Source of the DNA: a virus
Length of the DNA: 39,891 nucleotides
IMG/VR virus record: IMGVR_UViG_3300033146_002714
Location: 1 to 39,891 of that record
Reading direction: 5' to 3' (one strand)
The position numbers and the translations under genes are program-made. Shown piece by piece: positions 5,970 through 30,463 of the stretch (its first letter is position 1; the number at the start of each line of letters is the position of its first letter). Under the pieces are notes generated by a model that made no database searches, was not told the origin of the DNA, and saw only the letters and a list, made by a program, of their open reading frames with translations.

Positions 5970-6002
5970 AAAAAATGAAGCCCCTAGGAAAAAAGGACTT
6001 CA
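5970..6002 (-). terminator. Terminator of the GIY-YIG gene
   Basis: On the minus strand GAAGTCC and GGGGCTTC pair around a T-rich loop and are followed by ATTTTTTATG. The stem overlaps the stop codon region at 5984. Confidence 0.65.
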
Positions 6003-6334
6003 TATTCTTTTCTGATTTTGATTGAAACCTTTTCAACTCCGATTGGAATTATAAAGCGGTCATTTCTCATGTACTGCCAAGTCGGTTCAGTTTCTCGCCA
6101 TAGGTTAATCATGTTCTCCTCAACTCTAAGAGTGGAGAACCGACTTTTCAGAGGTGGTGATAACCAAATTACATGAATTTTTTTGCCGTAACCTCTTCGG
6201 TGTTCTGTCATTCTTCGCTTAGGATTGTTCGTTGTACCGATTTTGAAAAGTCTTTCTTCCTTATCTCCGATACGGATAAAGTAAATCCACTGATGTCCTT
6301 TATTGCCTTTATTCGGCAAGTCTTTTAGTAGCAT
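5984..6334 (-). CDS. GIY-YIG superfamily nuclease, T5orf172/MUG113-like
   Basis: This 116-aa protein is about the size of a single compact GIY-YIG domain. Residues 17-40 hold the signature: WIYFIRIG, a short insert, then LFKIGTTNNPKRRMTEH. The YFIRIG...FKIG pair stands for GIY...YIG, and the Arg in NPKRR is the usual catalytic arginine. A Glu at VEEN near residue 72 may be the metal ligand. Such stand-alone proteins in phages are generally thought to cut DNA. The start follows AGGTGTAGAAA. It is the second gene of the operon begun by 6358-6639. Confidence 0.75.
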   Translation of the reverse strand: MLLKDLPNKGNKGHQWIYFIRIGDKEERLFKIGTTNNPKRRMTEHRRGYGKKIHVIWLSPPLKSRFSTLRVEENMINLWRETEPTWQYMRNDRFIIPIGVEKVSIKIRKEYEVLFS

Positions 6335-18181: not shown

Positions 18182-19402
18182 ATGGCAGTACCAGTAACTA
18201 AAGTATTAAAGACCTGTCCGAAATGTAAGAAAACTATGGAAGAGACAGCGAACTACTACTCATATAAAGACAAAGAGCATCTCGGGACTCATGAGCTTTG
18301 TAAGAAATGTTTTACAATGCACATTAACTTGCGGGAGCCTTCTACTATAACGCCTTTGCTAGAGGAGCTAGATTTTCCTTTTATAGGATCAGAGTGGGAT
18401 AGCCTAGTTGAGAAGTATGGCAGCAATCCTAAAACTACGTCTACTGCGGTTTTCGGTAGATATATAGGCAAGATGAAACTTACTCAATATAAGAAGTACT
18501 CATTCGCTGATACGAAACAGTTTATGGCAGATGAAGAGGCTAGGCAGCTCAAGATAAAAGCCGAACAGTTGGCGCAAGTAAATAAATACAGATTAGCAGT
18601 AGACGCAGGTCAAGTTGAAGAGATTGCGGGCGGCACTATCCTAGGATACGATGGCTCGTTACTAAGCGACGAAGAGATTGCGGAGTTGGCATGCCCTAGT
18701 GGAGAGGTTCGAACTGGAGAAGAGTACTACAACAACGCTCAAAGTGGACTTACCATAGAAGATAAATTTTATTTATTTTCAAAATGGGGAAAAAGTTATA
18801 CCGTACCAGAATGTATAATTTTGGAGAAACTATTTGTGGACATGATGGATTCTTACGACATCAGAACAGGAAGTCACAAGGATTATTTACTCAAAATTTG
18901 TCGCTTGTCTCTGAAAATCGACCAGGCGTTAGAATGTAACGACATAGATGGCCATCAAAAGATGAGTAGGGTTTATGACCTTTTAATGAAATCGGCCAAA
19001 TTCACTGCCGCACAGATTAAAGACCAGGCCGATGATTACACTGATTCAGTTGGTGTTCTAATCGCCGCGTGCGAGGAAACTGGTTTTATTCCCAAATACC
19101 AAGATGAGAGAAAAGATGTCGTTGATATTACTCTAGAAGATATGAACAAGTACACTAGGAACTTAATTATGAACGAAATGAATCTTGGTAACCTAATTGA
19201 GATCTACTTAGCTAAGATGCAAGCAGAGCAAGTTAAGGACGAGGATGAAATGGATGAAGACGAGGATGATGATTTACTTTTGACAGGCCTTGACGACAAC
19301 GACGATATCTTGAAGGATGAAGACTTTGAAGACTTTAATGACATGATAGAAGCTGAGCAAGACTTCGATGAAGAGTTCCTAAAGAAAAATGGTGATTTAT
19401 AA
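18182..19402 (+). CDS. Putative small terminase subunit or packaging adaptor with zinc ribbon
   Basis: The ATG follows AAGGAAGTGATTAA. Residues 11-43 hold CPKCKK and CKKCFT, a zinc ribbon like the one at the end of 15891-16916. The middle is helical (EEARQLKIKAEQLAQVNKY), and the last 60 residues are very acidic (DEMDEDEDDDLLLTG). Its stop overlaps the terminase start (TAATG). Directly preceding the large terminase it would conventionally be the small subunit, and the DNA-binding ribbon suits DNA recognition. At 406 aa it is large for that role, and the assignment rests on position. Confidence 0.55.
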   Translation: MAVPVTKVLKTCPKCKKTMEETANYYSYKDKEHLGTHELCKKCFTMHINLREPSTITPLLEELDFPFIGSEWDSLVEKYGSNPKTTSTAVFGRYIGKMKLTQYKKYSFADTKQFMADEEARQLKIKAEQLAQVNKYRLAVDAGQVEEIAGGTILGYDGSLLSDEEIAELACPSGEVRTGEEYYNNAQSGLTIEDKFYLFSKWGKSYTVPECIILEKLFVDMMDSYDIRTGSHKDYLLKICRLSLKIDQALECNDIDGHQKMSRVYDLLMKSAKFTAAQIKDQADDYTDSVGVLIAACEETGFIPKYQDERKDVVDITLEDMNKYTRNLIMNEMNLGNLIEIYLAKMQAEQVKDEDEMDEDEDDDLLLTGLDDNDDILKDEDFEDFNDMIEAEQDFDEEFLKKNGDL

Positions 19403-20031
19403 TGGTAGATACGAAAGTTAAGAGCGAAGAGCTCAAAGGGAAGATGAGTAAGTATGAGTACAGTGAGTCCATGCGGAAGATGCTTGGAATTAACGATTAC
19501 ATTAGAAGCGATGCCTTACTGGAGCTCCTGGATATTGAAAAAGGCTCCGAAAAGATTGGAATGTCAGAAGAGAGAGTTCAAGAGAATTTGGATGAAATTA
19601 GGAAACACGCTTCATTTTGGAGAGAGTATCCAGATAAATTCATTGATTTTCTCTTGCCGAAGAAGTCTACGTTTAACCTTTTCTTTTATCAGAGAATATT
19701 TTTACGTGCAGCGATTAGGCATAAATACACTTTTGCGACTTTCCCTCGTGCGTTTTCCAAGTCTTTTTTATCTGTTTTAGTTTTAGTTATTAGATGTATG
19801 TTATACCCAGGTGCGAAGCTATTCATCGTTGCCGGTACAAAAGAACAGGGTGCAGCAATAGCTAAAGAGAAATTGGAAGAACTGAAGGAGCTAATTCCGG
19901 CATTTAAGAACGAAATAGTAGAGAGAAAATCTTTGTACGGAAAAGATTACGTTAAAGTAACTTTTAAGAATGGTTCTGTCCTTGACGTTGTTGCGGCTAG
20001 GAACAGTACAAGAGGTGGTCGTCGCCACGGT
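19402..20031 (+). CDS. terL: Terminase large subunit, exon 1
   Basis: This is the first 210 codons of the packaging motor ATPase. FPRAFSKS near residue 115 is the Walker A-type loop, and RNSTRGGRRHG just before the splice precedes the Walker B strand. Without splicing the frame stops at 20073 after 13 intron-coded residues. Exon 1 ends at the T of GGT (20031), and the frame resumes at 21152 with GGT TTA ATA. Together the five exons code for about 600 aa. The ATG overlaps the preceding stop. Confidence 0.85.
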
Positions 20032-20069
20032 GAGGCCTTAGGCGTCATGATGACCACATTAGCAGCAGC

Positions 20070-20098
20070 TTGACATTTTTAGAAAAATTTTGTATAAT
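20070..20098 (+). promoter_or_regulatory. Consensus promoter inside intron 1
   Basis: TTGACA, 17-base spacer, TATAAT, 37 bases before the nuclease ATG at 20136. It lets the homing gene be transcribed independently of terL. Confidence 0.8.
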
Positions 20099-20135
20099 AT
20101 AAACAGAAGTTAAAAAATTTAAGGAGCGTGTTTAT

Positions 20136-20927
20136 ATGTACAATCAGTTTTACTTTATTTACTCATTAACCAACACTAAGAATGGGAAGAGATATATAGG
20201 ATATTCGAATGATTTGAATAGAAGGTTATTTGATCACTGGACACAGTTAAAACTAAACCAACATCCCAATAAAATTCTACAAAAAGATTTTACTGAGGAA
20301 GATTTTAAAATTGAAATATTGGAAACATTCATTAACGTAGACAACGATTTTATCTCAAAATTCGAGAAGGAAGTAATATTAAAGTACGATTCTTTCAACA
20401 ATGGATATAATCAAACACCAGGTGGAGAAAAACAAGGGCAGAAAAACAATAATGATATACTTTTATCTGTATTGTTTATTTTAACACACTATGAAAATAG
20501 TGGTGTCGTTGTTCAGAAGCTGTTTAAAATGAGTGAAAGTGCTGTCTTGAGATTAAAGAATCACCAATCGCATCTTCATATTTATGAGATAGTTAAAAAC
20601 ATGTCTAAAGAGACAATATCTAACATGAAAGAAGAGTGCGAGAGAGAGTACGATATTTCAAATGCAATAAAAACCCACCGAAGTGAAGTAACTCTTGGGT
20701 CAAGAAAACTTGATCGAGAAACGGTTCTTCAGATAATTTCAGTGTGTAATAACAGGCAAAGAGTTGGTGGAATTGTGGAAAGACATCTTGGACTAGCATC
20801 TCAACATTCATCTCGAATAAAAAGAGGTCTTCGATATAGGGAGTATTATGATGAGTATTTAAAAATGGCAGAAGAAGAAAAAGGTCAATGGTTGATATCA
20901 GGACTGGAACGTTTTAGATTAGAGTAA
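20136..20927 (+). CDS. GIY-YIG homing endonuclease of intron 1
   Basis: This 263-aa protein has its GIY-YIG domain in the first 95 residues: FYFIYSLTN, then KRYIGYSNDLNRRLFDH with the catalytic Arg, the metal-binding Glu near FEKEVILKY, and the closing NNGYNQTPGG. The C-terminal half carries two helix-turn-helix-like repeats (MSESAVLRLKNHQSHLHIY and LGLASQHSSRIKRGLRYREY) that would contact the target. It should cut intronless terL near the insertion site and so spread the intron. Ribosome binding site AAGGAGCGTGTTTAT. Confidence 0.9.
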   Translation: MYNQFYFIYSLTNTKNGKRYIGYSNDLNRRLFDHWTQLKLNQHPNKILQKDFTEEDFKIEILETFINVDNDFISKFEKEVILKYDSFNNGYNQTPGGEKQGQKNNNDILLSVLFILTHYENSGVVVQKLFKMSESAVLRLKNHQSHLHIYEIVKNMSKETISNMKEECEREYDISNAIKTHRSEVTLGSRKLDRETVLQIISVCNNRQRVGGIVERHLGLASQHSSRIKRGLRYREYYDEYLKMAEEEKGQWLISGLERFRLE

Positions 20928-21151
20928 TAAATTAAATCGCCGTGGTTGTAAATCGAAGTATTAAGCGGGAAAGCTGAAATGCCAATCCGAACCGAAGGCT
21001 ATACCAAGTATAGTCAGGGGCAGAGCATAGGTGGTGAAAAGATATAATCCACCCAAGAGACTTCGACACAGAAATGTGAAAAGATATGCCGAACTTGCAC
21101 GAAAAACAAGTGTAAGAACATAGGGATAAAAAGCCTTATGGATAACAAATG

Positions 21152-21289
21152 GGTTTAATAGAAGAGGTCGTCTTAATAGACGGCACGGCATTAAACGAAG
21201 TAATCCTGCCATTAATGAACGTTTCAAGGAGGGCGAAGAATGGTAAGGTAGATGAACAGGAAAGTTTAAACAAGAGTCAAATCTATGTT
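21152..21289 (+). CDS. terL: Terminase large subunit, exon 2
   Basis: Forty-six codons, GLIEEVVLIDGTALNEVILP and onward to KSQIYV. It carries the Walker B strand and catalytic Glu (EEVVLIDG). It ends with T at 21289. Confidence 0.85.
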
Positions 21290-22418
21290 AATATTTTTGG
21301 ACAAAACGTTACAATGTTATGCGCTTAATTTTCATATTATAAAAAGGTGGTATTATATGTATTATTTATACAAAATAGAAAATTCAGTTAATCACAAAAA
21401 GTACATCGGTTTAACAAATAATGTAAAGAGACGACGCTCTCGACATTTTACAGATTTATTAAACAACAACCACGACAATGCTTTCTTTCAAAAAGAATAC
21501 AATATTTTTGGAAAAGAGAGCTTCACTTTTGAAGTTATCCTCGAAGGGGATTATTCTCACAAAGAGATTTCAGTGGCTGAGGTTAAAGCAATTGAAGAGT
21601 ATGATTCTTACTTTAATGGATACAATCAAAACAAGGGCGGTAATTTTGGTCCTAGTAATGGAGGCTCTCAACTAACAGAGTCAGACATCTTTTGTATTCT
21701 GTCAGCTCTTGAATTTATGTCTAGACCGGGTCAGGTTTTGGCTGATATCTTTGAGATCAGTAGAACAACAGTCTCAAGAATCAAAAGAGAGGTAAGTCAC
21801 AATGAGATAATTGAGAAGTACAAAAAATTATCCATAGAAGAAAAAAAACGCGTGTACGAAATATTTTGTGAAAGCCATAACTTGCTAGAGAAAAAAGCTA
21901 ATTCTACTATTATAGAGTCAAAGAGAAAGCTAAATGAAGAACAGGTTCATATCGTTTTATTCAATGAAGTGAATGGTAGAATAATTCCATTAAAGAGATT
22001 AGCTTTCTTATTGGGACTAAAGAGTGGAAACACTTTAACGACAATTCTAAATAAGAAGTCGTATCAGGATTACAGCTTATCCTACTTAAAACTAGATGAA
22101 AGCCAAAAAGATAAATTAGCATCATTGCTTAGTAATATGCAATAGTAAACCCATTGAACTGCTGGAAAGCCCTTAGAGCTTAATCAACTACAACGCAATC
22201 GAAAACGATAAACGTGAATGTTAAAAATGATTGAGATTGGGTAATCAGCATCCAAGCCTCGGTAACAGAGGAAGGTTCAACGACTATCTCGCAAGAGAGT
22301 AGAATCAAGCGATTCGAAGTGGTGGGCTCCCTATTCAATAGGGATGAAGATATAGTCTGCTCTTTAGGGAAACTTAAAGAAGGAAGATTTGGCGAGTCTT
22401 TCGTAACATAAAGGAACG
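21290..22418 (+). ncRNA. Group I intron 2 in terL (with GIY-YIG gene)
   Basis: 1129 bases. It starts after exon TGTT (which can pair with GACA as P1, with the usual U-G) and ends with G at 22418, so QIYV joins TAGHKGSF. Core elements after the nuclease gene: GAACTGCTGGAAAG, AATCAGCATCCAAGCCTC, CAACGACTATC and GAAGATATAGTCTGCTCT, the same order as in the phage T4 td intron (group IA). Confidence 0.85.
21357..22145 (+). CDS. GIY-YIG homing endonuclease of intron 2
   Basis: The start is ATG 21357 (MYYLYKIEN) after AAAAAGGTGGTATTAT; a longer frame begins in exon sequence and is not credible. The 262-aa protein has YLYKIEN, KKYIGLTNNVKRRRSRH, the Glu of VKAIEEYDS, and FNGYNQNKGG at the domain end. 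Its tail holds two helix-turn-helix-like repeats (FEISRTTVSRIKREV and LGLKSGNTLTTILNKKSY). It is a paralog of the intron 1 enzyme but clearly diverged. No own promoter is obvious, so it may depend on terL transcription. Confidence 0.9.
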   Translation: MYYLYKIENSVNHKKYIGLTNNVKRRRSRHFTDLLNNNHDNAFFQKEYNIFGKESFTFEVILEGDYSHKEISVAEVKAIEEYDSYFNGYNQNKGGNFGPSNGGSQLTESDIFCILSALEFMSRPGQVLADIFEISRTTVSRIKREVSHNEIIEKYKKLSIEEKKRVYEIFCESHNLLEKKANSTIIESKRKLNEEQVHIVLFNEVNGRIIPLKRLAFLLGLKSGNTLTTILNKKSYQDYSLSYLKLDESQKDKLASLLSNMQ

Positions 22419-22531
22419 ACAGCAGGTCACAAAGGATCCTTCGCATACGAAAAACTACTTCAATTGCTTATATGGCAAATTGTGCGACCAGAGTCTAGCT
22501 TCATTTTTGGTGGTAGTTGGCGTATACCCCC
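22419..22531 (+). CDS. terL: Terminase large subunit, exon 3 (3' end approximate)
   Basis: Begins ACA GCA GGT (TAGHKGSFAYEKLLQLL), the conserved TAG/coupling motif of the ATPase, and runs to GGSWRIP. The exact end lies between 22525 and 22533: a P1-like pairing suggests 22533 (CCGT), but that does not restore the frame with exon 4. Confidence 0.7.
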
Positions 22532-22803
22532 GTAAACAACATTGCGGCTTGGTGCGGTGACGCACTTCGAAAAACTCTTTTAATTCAGAGGAACTCTTTC
22601 AAAAAGACAATTCTGAGCCAAGGGTCATTTTAATAAATGCAAATGATCAAGGTGCAACGACTATCCCGGGTACGGGAGTACACCCAAGTGGGTGGAAAAG
22701 GAGAGGCTCTCAACGAGAGTGTGATATAGTCTACTCTATATGGTGACATATAGCTGCGAGCAAAGTCGCGGACTGGAGATGACGAAACCAGTTGAATAAA
22801 AGG
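22532..22803 (+). ncRNA. Group I intron 3 in terL, ORF-less (ends approximate)
   Basis: About 270 bases without a gene. Elements: GTGCG-GTGA-CGCAC (P2), CAACGACTATCCCGGGTACG, and GTGATATAGTCTACTCTATA followed by GGTGACATATAGCTGC, closely matching the td-type core. It ends near GTTGAATAAAAGG. Its compact size is like other nuclease-free phage introns. Confidence 0.75.
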
Positions 22804-22855
22804 AATGCACAAATTACTAGATAGGAACTTTGTTAGAGATTTAAAAATGGACGGT
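22804..22855 (+). CDS. terL: Terminase large subunit, exon 4 (5' end approximate)
   Basis: About 17 codons, MHKLLDRNFVRDLKMDG, linking the ATPase and nuclease domains. The 3' end at the T of GGT (22855) is firm because GGT joins ACC TTC in frame. Confidence 0.75.
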
Positions 22856-23160
22856 GAACGTAATGTTAGTGCCGTAAGAAATTTTACCAGTGCTCACTGG
22901 GGTTTTGCATCTTAAGACGCAAAGCTAACGGGGAAGGCTAAACCAGAGATGGCATGTTGATCCCGTGGGAAATCATTCAAAAACAAGAACCATCAAATCA
23001 GCTCGAAGAGAGGTTTAAATGGTTTTTGAATGAGACCTGTATCGACTATCCTCGTCTAGAGGAGTAGGGACACTATTGAGACGTGTTTCGAAACAGTTTC
23101 CTCTCGCATCCGGTGAGAGTAAGATATAGTCAGTGCCATTAGAAATAATGGATAAACACG
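22856..23160 (+). ncRNA. Group I intron 4 in terL, ORF-less
   Basis: 305 bases from GAACGTAATG to a terminal G. Removing it joins KMDG to TFNEMSFAREYESEW. Core: ATCGACTATCCTCGTCTAGA, GGAGTAGGGACACTATTGAG and GTAAGATATAGTCAGTGCCA. Confidence 0.8.
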
Positions 23161-24033
23161 ACCTTCAATGAAATGTCTTTCGCAAGAGAGTACGAATCAG
23201 AGTGGAGCGGAAGTTCAGAAGATTCATTCTTTAGACCTGAACTATTCGACAAATACAGAATTTTAAAAGTTCCATCTGCTAGGGGGTATTACGTAATGTC
23301 TGTCGATGTTGGACGTATAGGATGTTCATCTGTAGTTGTAATTACCAAAGTTATGCCTCAAGTTAAAGGCGGAGCCTTCAAGTCAATCGTTAATCTCTAT
23401 TCGTTTGATGAAGATCACTTTGAGGCACAGGCACTGAAAATAAAGAGGCTTTTTTACAGATACAACCCGCAGGCAATAGTAATTGATGCAAACGGTCTGG
23501 GTGTTGGTCTTATTGACTTCATGGTAAAGACAACAACAGACGAGGTAACTAAAGAGACGTACCCTCCGTTCGGAGTTATTAATGATGAAACTAAGTTATA
23601 CAAGAATTTTGCAACGCCCGATATGGAGAAAGATATTCTATACCTGGTGAAAGCAACTCAAGATATTAACACAGAGGCTCATGCCAATGTATTAAGTCAG
23701 ATCAGCTCAGGAAAGGTTAGACTTTTAATAGATGAGCGTGCGGCGAAAGCTAAATTCTTATCTACTAAAGTCGGTATGGCAGCCTCATCAGAGCAAAGGG
23801 CAAGTTACTTAAAACCTTTTACCTTAACTTCCATCTTAAGAGAAGAGATGTTGAATCTTAGAGAAAAAAGAGAAGGTAAACATTTGGTATTGGAGCCTGT
23901 AAACAGAAAGATTAAAAAGGATAAGTTCTCAGCTTTTGAATATGGACTTTACTACATTAAGCAAGTTGAAGATAGTAAAAGAAAACGCAAGAGGGGTAGA
24001 ATATCTGACTTTATGTTTTACAGTAAGAAATAA
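23161..24033 (+). CDS. terL: Terminase large subunit, exon 5 (nuclease domain)
   Basis: 290 codons. It starts TFNEMSFAREYESEWSGSSE and contains the RNase H-like nuclease: MSVDVGRIG (first Asp), AIVIDANGLGVG (second Asp), and an acidic third site near LIDERAAKAKF. This domain cuts the concatemer into genome lengths. The C-terminus is Lys/Arg-rich (DSKRKRKRGRISDF). The ATG at 23173 is internal, not a start. Confidence 0.85.
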   Translation, partial: TFNEMSFAREYESEWSGSSEDSFFRPELFDKYRILKVPSARGYYVMSVDVGRIGCSSVVVITKVMPQVKGGAFKSIVNLYSFDEDHFEAQALKIKRLFYRYNPQAIVIDANGLGVGLIDFMVKTTTDEVTKETYPPFGVINDETKLYKNFATPDMEKDILYLVKATQDINTEAHANVLSQISSGKVRLLIDERAAKAKFLSTKVGMAASSEQRASYLKPFTLTSILREEMLNLREKREGKHLVLEPVNRKIKKDKFSAFEYGLYYIKQVEDSKRKRKRGRISDFMFYSKK

Positions 24034-24048: not shown

Positions 24049-24414
24049 GTGGCAATGAGTCGCGGCGAATTAAAAATAAAAGATATACTAGAGGATAACA
24101 ACATTAATTTTGAGCAAGAGTACATATTCTCAGATTTAATAACTTCCAGTGGAAGACCTCTTAGATTTGATTTTGCTGTTTTTGACGATGACGGTAATTT
24201 AGATTACCTAATAGAGTTCCAGGGTGAGCAGCACTATACAGGTGTTGCTCATTTCGGAGGTCAAAAGCATTTAAAGATACAGAAGTTTAATGATAAGGCA
24301 AAGAGGCAGTTCTGTTTTAAAAAAGGATATAAGCTAGTTGCTATTCCCTATTGGGATTACGACAAAGTAAATTTCTCTTATCTTATTGAAAAATCAGAAG
24401 AGTTCAGGTTATAA
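24049..24414 (+). CDS. PD-(D/E)XK / VSR-like nuclease, possible free-standing homing endonuclease
   Basis: The start is GTG 24049 after AAAGGAGTGAGTTAGA. The 121-aa protein has RFDFAVFDD, then YLIEFQGEQHY, the D...ExQ core with a His-Tyr tail that marks VSR-like and related single-domain nucleases, and KGYKLVAIPYWDYDK near the end. This is the fold of I-Bth0305I-type phage homing enzymes. Sitting directly after an intron-riddled terL, it could be a free-standing homing nuclease or could act in packaging. The family assignment is from motif only. Confidence 0.65.
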   Translation: MAMSRGELKIKDILEDNNINFEQEYIFSDLITSSGRPLRFDFAVFDDDGNLDYLIEFQGEQHYTGVAHFGGQKHLKIQKFNDKAKRQFCFKKGYKLVAIPYWDYDKVNFSYLIEKSEEFRL

Positions 24415-24417
24415 AAT

Positions 24418-24446
24418 TTGACTTCTTCTGGAAATTTTGTTATAAT
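24418..24446 (+). promoter_or_regulatory. Promoter of the head gene run
   Basis: TTGACT, 17-base spacer ending TGT, TATAAT. It begins 3 bases after the stop of 24049-24414 and serves the portal gene onward. Confidence 0.8.
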
Positions 24447-30159: not shown

Positions 30160-30463
30160 CAAGTTAACCTTAGACAGAAAAGACGAGAGTAAATACAAGA
30201 GAGTCCTTGTTAATATGGTTTATAAGCTACTTCCTTTGCGAGAAGAGGGTACAGATTGGATTAAATACCTAGACTCTTTAATATTAGAGATAAAAGGATT
30301 CGGCTATATCTTTGAGAATGATGATTCAGTGTCTTTCATTCGACTGCTTAGTAAACTAGAAGGCTTAAGAGACCTGGTCGAAGACAGTGACTTTATGCTT
30401 TACCGAAAAATTATTTTTGAATGTACTAACTTAATTAACATCAAGGAAGTTGGTGCTGAGTAA
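30149..30463 (+). CDS. Neck-region hypothetical protein, 104 aa
   Basis: The start is ATG 30149 with TTGGAGGTAAGAAAA before it; an earlier in-frame ATG at 30098 lies well inside the upstream gene without a site. A small helical, charged protein (MPTNKLTLDRKDESKYKRVL). Its stop overlaps the next start (TAATG). Probably part of the neck assembly. Confidence 0.65.
   Translation: MPTNKLTLDRKDESKYKRVLVNMVYKLLPLREEGTDWIKYLDSLILEIKGFGYIFENDDSVSFIRLLSKLEGLRDLVEDSDFMLYRKIIFECTNLINIKEVGAE

Follow-up and report, generated by a model that had tools for sequence, protein, structure and literature searches.

The 39,891-base phage record IMGVR_UViG_3300033146_002714 of IMG/VR, putatively a fragment and analysed here at its full length (hereafter the window), carries a gene for the large terminase subunit, terL. 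The terL span is exactly 19402-24033 on the plus strand and consists of five exons with four introns between them. As the reference for exon placement we used intronless relatives, namely Enterococcus phage H1 (591 amino acids), Geobacillus virus E3 (588 amino acids) and several dozen IMG/VR phages. Candidate junctions were scored against a TerL profile of relatives, and intron sites are numbered by window residue; relatives from our sample are denoted by L numbers. The ATPase and RNase H-like nuclease domains of the window TerL are homologous to those of annotated terminases. The exons and introns are as follows (nt, nucleotides):

19402..20031 (+): terL exon 1, 210 codons, the N-terminal part of the ATPase with Walker A, ending RGGRRHG; placed by profile junction scan; phrog_15503 E=8e-58, terL phrogs weaker
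20032..21151 (+): intron 1, predicted group I, 1120 nt; site 210, phase 0
21152..21288 (+): terL exon 2, GLIEEVVLIDG..KSQIYV, with Walker B; placed by profile junction scan
21289..22414 (+): intron 2, predicted group I, 1126 nt; site 255, phase 2
22415..22533 (+): terL exon 3, TTAGHKG..GGSWRIP; placed by profile junction scan
22534..22803 (+): intron 3, predicted group I, 270 nt, no open reading frame (ORF); site 294, phase 2
22804..22855 (+): terL exon 4, 52 nt, about 17 codons, MHKLLDRNFVRDLKMDG
22856..23160 (+): intron 4, predicted group I, 305 nt, no ORF; site 312, phase 0
23161..24033 (+): terL exon 5, TFNE.., the RNase H-like nuclease domain; PF17289 (Terminase_6C) just over cut-off; tblastn matches to 83 phage records

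The interruptions fall at RGGRRHG|GLIEEV on the approach to Walker B, at IYV|TTAG in the coupling motif, at GGSWRIP|MHKLLD and at KMDG|TFNE (bars mark junctions). For introns 1, 2 and 4, one junction each satisfied frame, profile, a 5' U and a 3' G together, and exon ligation restores the reading frame. In all four introns the U at the 5' exon end is paired with a guide G, flanked by 9, 7, 5 and 5 further pairs (introns 1-4), and all four end in a terminal G; for intron 3, the site chosen is the one with the best P10. An alternative intron 2 junction after GTTAAT satisfied the U and the G, but it was rejected for its lower profile score and the change of a conserved T to N. The P1 pairing of intron 3 joins CCGU|AA with UUGCGG and its P10 joins CAUU with AAUG, and the P1 of intron 4 joins ACGGU|G with UGCCGU. 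Introns 1 and 2 have the following internal features:

20070..20098 (+): sigma-70 promoter TTGACA-17-TATAAT inside intron 1, ahead of the nuclease gene; 12/12 consensus matches, about 0.005 expected in the base-shuffled region
20136..20927 (+): intron 1 homing endonuclease, GIY-YIG, 263 amino acids, in the P1 loop; PF01541 E=3e-9; phrog_7168
20937..20946 (+): intron 1 internal guide sequence, tcGCCGTGGT, pairing with the exon end GCCACGGT|ga
21357..22145 (+): intron 2 homing endonuclease, GIY-YIG, 262 amino acids, in the P1 loop; PF01541 E=5e-9
22115..22122 (+): intron 2 guide sequence, attaGCAT, pairing with the exon end ATGT|taat

As RNA, the intron 1 pairing is GCCACGGU|GA with UCGCCGUGGU, and this guide covaries with its counterpart in relative L008 (ACACGGT/GCCGTGT). 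The intron 2 pairing is AUGU|UAAU with AUUAGCAU, and its counterpart in relative L183 is compensatory (ACGT|taaa with tttaGCGT). Both guides lie far downstream of their splice sites, by 908 nt in intron 1 and 831 nt in intron 2, where the 3' end of the nuclease gene overlaps the guide. Because the guides stand beyond or at the ends of the nuclease genes, these genes sit in the P1 loop, a layout that we also found in L008, L228 and L183; the guides of L008 and L183 have changed in a compensating manner. The GIY-YIG domain exceeds the curated PF01541 cut-off in both intron ORFs (37.5 and 36.8 bits vs 22.6) and was found in neither intron 3 nor intron 4, in agreement with a preliminary description of this DNA, which had reported two introns with GIY-YIG genes, two bare introns and exons as short as about 17 codons. 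The intron 1 nuclease is related to that of intron 2 at 30% identity, and the intron 2 nuclease is 54% identical to an intron nuclease of Enterococcus phage VRE9_1. A second near-perfect sigma-70 promoter occurs at 24418-24446, ahead of the portal gene.

Introns 2 and 3 reached the gathering score of the Rfam group I model RF00028 (74.5 bits at 22103-22379 and 84.4 bits at 22524-22753, respectively). Since Rfam was silent on intron 1, a separate covariance model was built without the window, and it detected intron 1 at 21017-21148 with 119.8 bits (E=1e-23); its second match in the window was the P7-P9 part of intron 2. A model made from three relatives, again with the window excluded, detected intron 4 at 23034-23160 with 108.3 bits (E=2e-22), followed by introns 3 and then 2. 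The cross-matches of these leave-one-out models to introns 2 and 3 were weak, with E about 0.01 to 0.0006. The conserved catalytic core was recognised by a covariance model in all four introns, through Rfam for introns 2 and 3 and the window-free models for introns 1 and 4; structural covariance models for each intron were a check that the preliminary description had proposed.

Alignments of the intron 1 and intron 4 classes show covariation. The core of intron 1 is 76% identical to that of the L008 intron, from a relative with TAG inside TerL, and the differences are compensating pairs in P3, P6a, P7.1, P9 and P9.1. Across the intron 1 class (12 sequences), paired cells amounted to 83.9% vs 66.4% in shuffles, two-sided changes to 100 cells vs 32, and the covariation score to 0.513 vs 0.183. 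This class (L146-L155, L008 and L228; window 20938-21151) has a conserved 3' end, GAUAAAAAGCC..GAUAACAA. Its other members lie in or beside RecD-like helicase, tape-measure and capsid genes of Bacillus, Streptococcus, Clostridioides and crAss-like phages, and RF00028 misses every one of these helicase-, tape-measure- or capsid-associated members at that location. In the intron 4 class (four sequences including the window), 24 of the 60 consensus pairs carry two-sided changes and a U-G pair is invariant. Junctions, Rfam matches and window-free models thus agree that four group I introns interrupt conserved motifs of TerL, as had been proposed, and on these sequence features we assign all four terL introns to group I.

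We compared the gene with 127 distinct near-full TerL sequences, chosen by similarity and not at random. Their genes carry no intron in 112 cases, one in 8, two in 3, three in 3 and four in a single case, L053, which was seen on two contigs (L053, L054). The TerL family has at least 15 intron sites: 116, 117, 146, 210, 215, 230, 255, 257, 258, 260, 266, 294, 312, 323 and 424. The window sites 210, 255 and 312 carry homologous introns at the identical positions in L008, L183 and L045, respectively, and intron 2 is 64% identical in nucleotides to the L183 intron over 1046 nt. Where intron 4 of the window has only a hairpin, a GIY-YIG-like ORF stands in the L045 intron at site 312 and in the related introns at site 215 of VRE9_3 and of L156, so intron 4 plausibly derives from an intron of this kind and lacks the nuclease.

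The Enterococcus phages H1, VRE9_1, VRE9_3 and EF1 have 0, 1, 2 and 3 terL introns; because the VRE9 records break inside terL, the counts for these phages are minimum values. Away from intron edges, their shared exons are mostly at least 97% identical, and the intron differences between these near-identical genes have the appearance, at the sequence level, of recent mobility. In an intron-versus-exon identity comparison aimed at horizontal transfer, the alignments were inflated by gaps. TAG occurs inside TerL in L003, L008, L017, L036 and L053, and TGA in L009, L012 and L021, so that in many IMG/VR relatives these codons are apparently read as amino acids; the window itself uses the normal genetic code. 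These recoded relatives have intron sites in common with standard-code phages.

From the anatomy, guide pairings, covariation, site sharing and presence or absence among relatives, all observed directly, we propose that the window terL is a single gene that mobile group I introns have entered repeatedly and that is spliced to rebuild the TerL message, a reading to which we give a probability of about 0.88. Each intron would fold in the transcript, pairing the upstream exon end with its own guide sequence, and would be removed by two guanosine-dependent transesterifications, which would rebuild the message. Introns 1 and 2 would be complete mobile units whose GIY-YIG nucleases would cleave intronless terL alleles in phages that infect the same cell. 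The other two introns are bare, and intron 4 resembles a nuclease-free version of a same-site GIY-YIG intron elsewhere. By analogy with known group I biology, splicing and homing would be expected, as would a functional spliced product and a dependence of TerL on splicing. The four introns most likely arrived separately, and not by duplication within the gene, because they fall in at least three ribozyme groups. Duplication inside terL also lacks support, since the best blastn relatives of introns 1, 2 and 4 are same-site introns in other phages, although the nucleases of introns 1 and 2 are related.

Several observations weigh against this reading, one of them at the junction of exons 3 and 4. 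The five exons sum to 1811 nt, 2 nt out of frame, and the break maps to a single run:

22527..22531 (+): CCCCC run with two surplus bases relative to intronless relatives, shifting the frame by two bases between exons 3 and 4

In the closest relative, L156, which lacks an intron at this position, the sequence is CGT ATA CCA GTT GCA CAT AAA (RIPVAHK); a hypothetical CCC at 22527-22531 would give CGT ATA CCC GTA ATG CAC AAA (RIPVMHK). As assembled, the ligated RNA is CCCCCGU|AAUGCAC, which encodes RIPP and then a UAA stop, and the removal of intron 3 would not restore the frame. P1 fixes the 5' site of intron 3 and P10 fixes its 3' site, and the stop at the junction follows from the two. Alternative 3' sites were tried at every G in reach of the P1-defined 5' site, and all produced a stop except 22821, which deletes MHKLLD. 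A reassigned genetic code was rejected as a rescue, because all three standard stop codons (TAA, TAG and TGA) close genes of the window, and the stop formed at the junction is a TAA. A search for other contigs across this junction, in which the length of the C run might vary, found none, and site 294 has no same-site counterpart elsewhere in the sample. Further points on the same side are that RF00028 did not match intron 1 even at relaxed thresholds and scored intron 4 at a sub-threshold 21 bits, and that splicing is predicted from DNA sequence. The frame failure concerns the exon and not the ribozyme core of intron 3 (84 bits), frame being something expected of the host gene. A dependence of packaging on four splicing events, which the preliminary description had stated, is putative: with exons 3 and 4 out of frame as assembled, splicing at all four introns could yield a complete TerL only if the CCCCC run were erroneous or bypassed. 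Most likely, the two surplus C residues are an assembly error or a real or recent indel.

If the run is real, the UAAUG created by intron 3 splicing could act as a stop-start that divides TerL into two chains: the ATPase half would end in RIPP, and translational coupling would restart synthesis at MHKLLD for the nuclease half. Alternatively, a -1 slip on CCCCC could restore one chain with an extra proline. The spliced RNA has exactly this form, the P1 and P10 of intron 3 indicate exactly these splice sites, and TAATG overlaps occur in the same phage at the terL start (19400-19404) and near 30461. However, nearly all relatives without intron 3 encode a single chain here, with RIPV, KIPV or RIPI, the ligated RNA has no Shine-Dalgarno sequence at the usual distance, and a C run can gain two bases by simple error or mutation, so we regard this arrangement as unlikely. 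A different outcome would be the skipping of exon 3, with splicing from the 5' site of intron 2 to the 3' site of intron 3 and a shortened TerL as the product. Both sites are phase 2, and exons 1-2-4-5 are the only tested exon set open to the terL stop as assembled (563 amino acids). Exon skipping with tandem group I introns is known in phage SIOphi (PMC11878797) and in Twort orf142 (PMC10136302). The common phase may nevertheless be chance (1 in 3), and the product would lack exon 3, about 39 residues that are conserved in all relatives and include the TTAG coupling motif; such a product should not package DNA, which makes skipping highly improbable. It is unlikely that the surplus C residues are real and that splicing, by way of the UAAUG stop-start or of exon 3 skipping, reshapes the terminase, with the choice of splicing controlling the packaging motor.

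The frame break could also mark terL as a decayed pseudogene with a functional copy in a missing part of the genome, and at 39.9 kb the record is short next to the 110-190 kb contigs of many relatives. Yet the remaining exon sequence is all open and conserved with relatives, and the single break lies in a homopolymer, which leaves decay a very unlikely explanation. The GIY-YIG genes in two of the insertions might point to inteins or freestanding nuclease genes. Read-through of each of the first three insertions hits a stop within 13 codons, however, and ribozyme cores and guide pairings occur in all four; we reject this idea on the cores and give it almost no chance. Repeated invasion of one gene by group I introns is the reading that we retain.

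A PhoH-like gene and a phrog_3314 gene lie upstream of terL, and the portal gene lies downstream, with one further ORF between:

24049..24414 (+): homing-endonuclease-like ORF, free-standing, 121 amino acids, between terL and portal; phrog_9084 E=5e-30, phrog_559 E=1e-26

An ORF of similar size occupies this position in Enterococcus phages EF1 and H1, and phrog_559 is the family found inside the terL introns of Bastillevirinae. A small GIY-YIG/T5orf172-like ORF is also present outside terL, at 5984-6334 on the minus strand. The nearest cellular-genome contigs are metagenome-assembled genomes of Lachnospiraceae, Clostridium and Oscillospiraceae, which only hints at a host among these groups.

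Group I introns documented in a terL now number up to four instead of three, and a single TerL family shows two distinct arrangements of four. That family has at least 15 intron sites, most of them at conserved motifs, and identical sites are re-used across phages that differ even in genetic code. The terL of this clade is a good natural system for studying how introns accumulate, whether phages use homing nucleases as weapons against one another and what number of splicing steps can be tolerated in an essential late gene. A practical caution is that gene callers take genes of this kind for broken ones, and the Rfam cut-off misses half of the introns in this one.

Group I introns in terL have been described in Bastillevirinae phages such as SIOphi and phiAGATE, at most three per gene (PMC11878797); the endonucleases there belong to the VSR-like phrog_559 family, whereas those of the window are GIY-YIG, and the TerL lineage differs. 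In Jug phages, terL and nrdD are split; group I introns divide terL into 2-3 pieces, and metatranscriptome reads span the junctions (PMC12363816). These genes are likewise intron-cut, but they have fewer introns, and the predicted hosts are Bacteroides or Phocaeicola. The major capsid protein gene of crAss-like Zeta phages is in five fragments, with group I intron domains in three of its four interruptions (PMC7886860), an essential gene with four interruptions as here, but for the capsid instead of TerL. Several group I introns surround very short exons in Twort orf142 as well, in a different gene and with three introns (PMC10136302). Closer to the window, the Enterococcus phages EF1/EF5 and VRE9_1-3 (vs the intronless H1 and VRE9_4) have its TerL family and GIY-YIG and HNH endonucleases, but at most three introns, and their sites (215, 230, 257, 260 and about 323) include none exactly in common with the window. 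L053/L054 matches the window in TerL family and in having four introns, but its sites (116, 230, 323, 424) are all different, all four of its introns are bare and TAG occurs within its exons, whereas two window introns carry GIY-YIG genes. The preliminary description had called four introns in one gene exceptional. This holds against published terL genes, which have 2-3 introns or fragments (PMC11878797, PMC12363816), but it is tempered by L053/L054 and by the five-fragment crAss-like capsid gene (PMC7886860). Four is the most that we found in any terL, though not unique, and with precedents of 2-3 terL introns and a five-fragment crAss-like gene, the window terL stands at the upper end of intron load.

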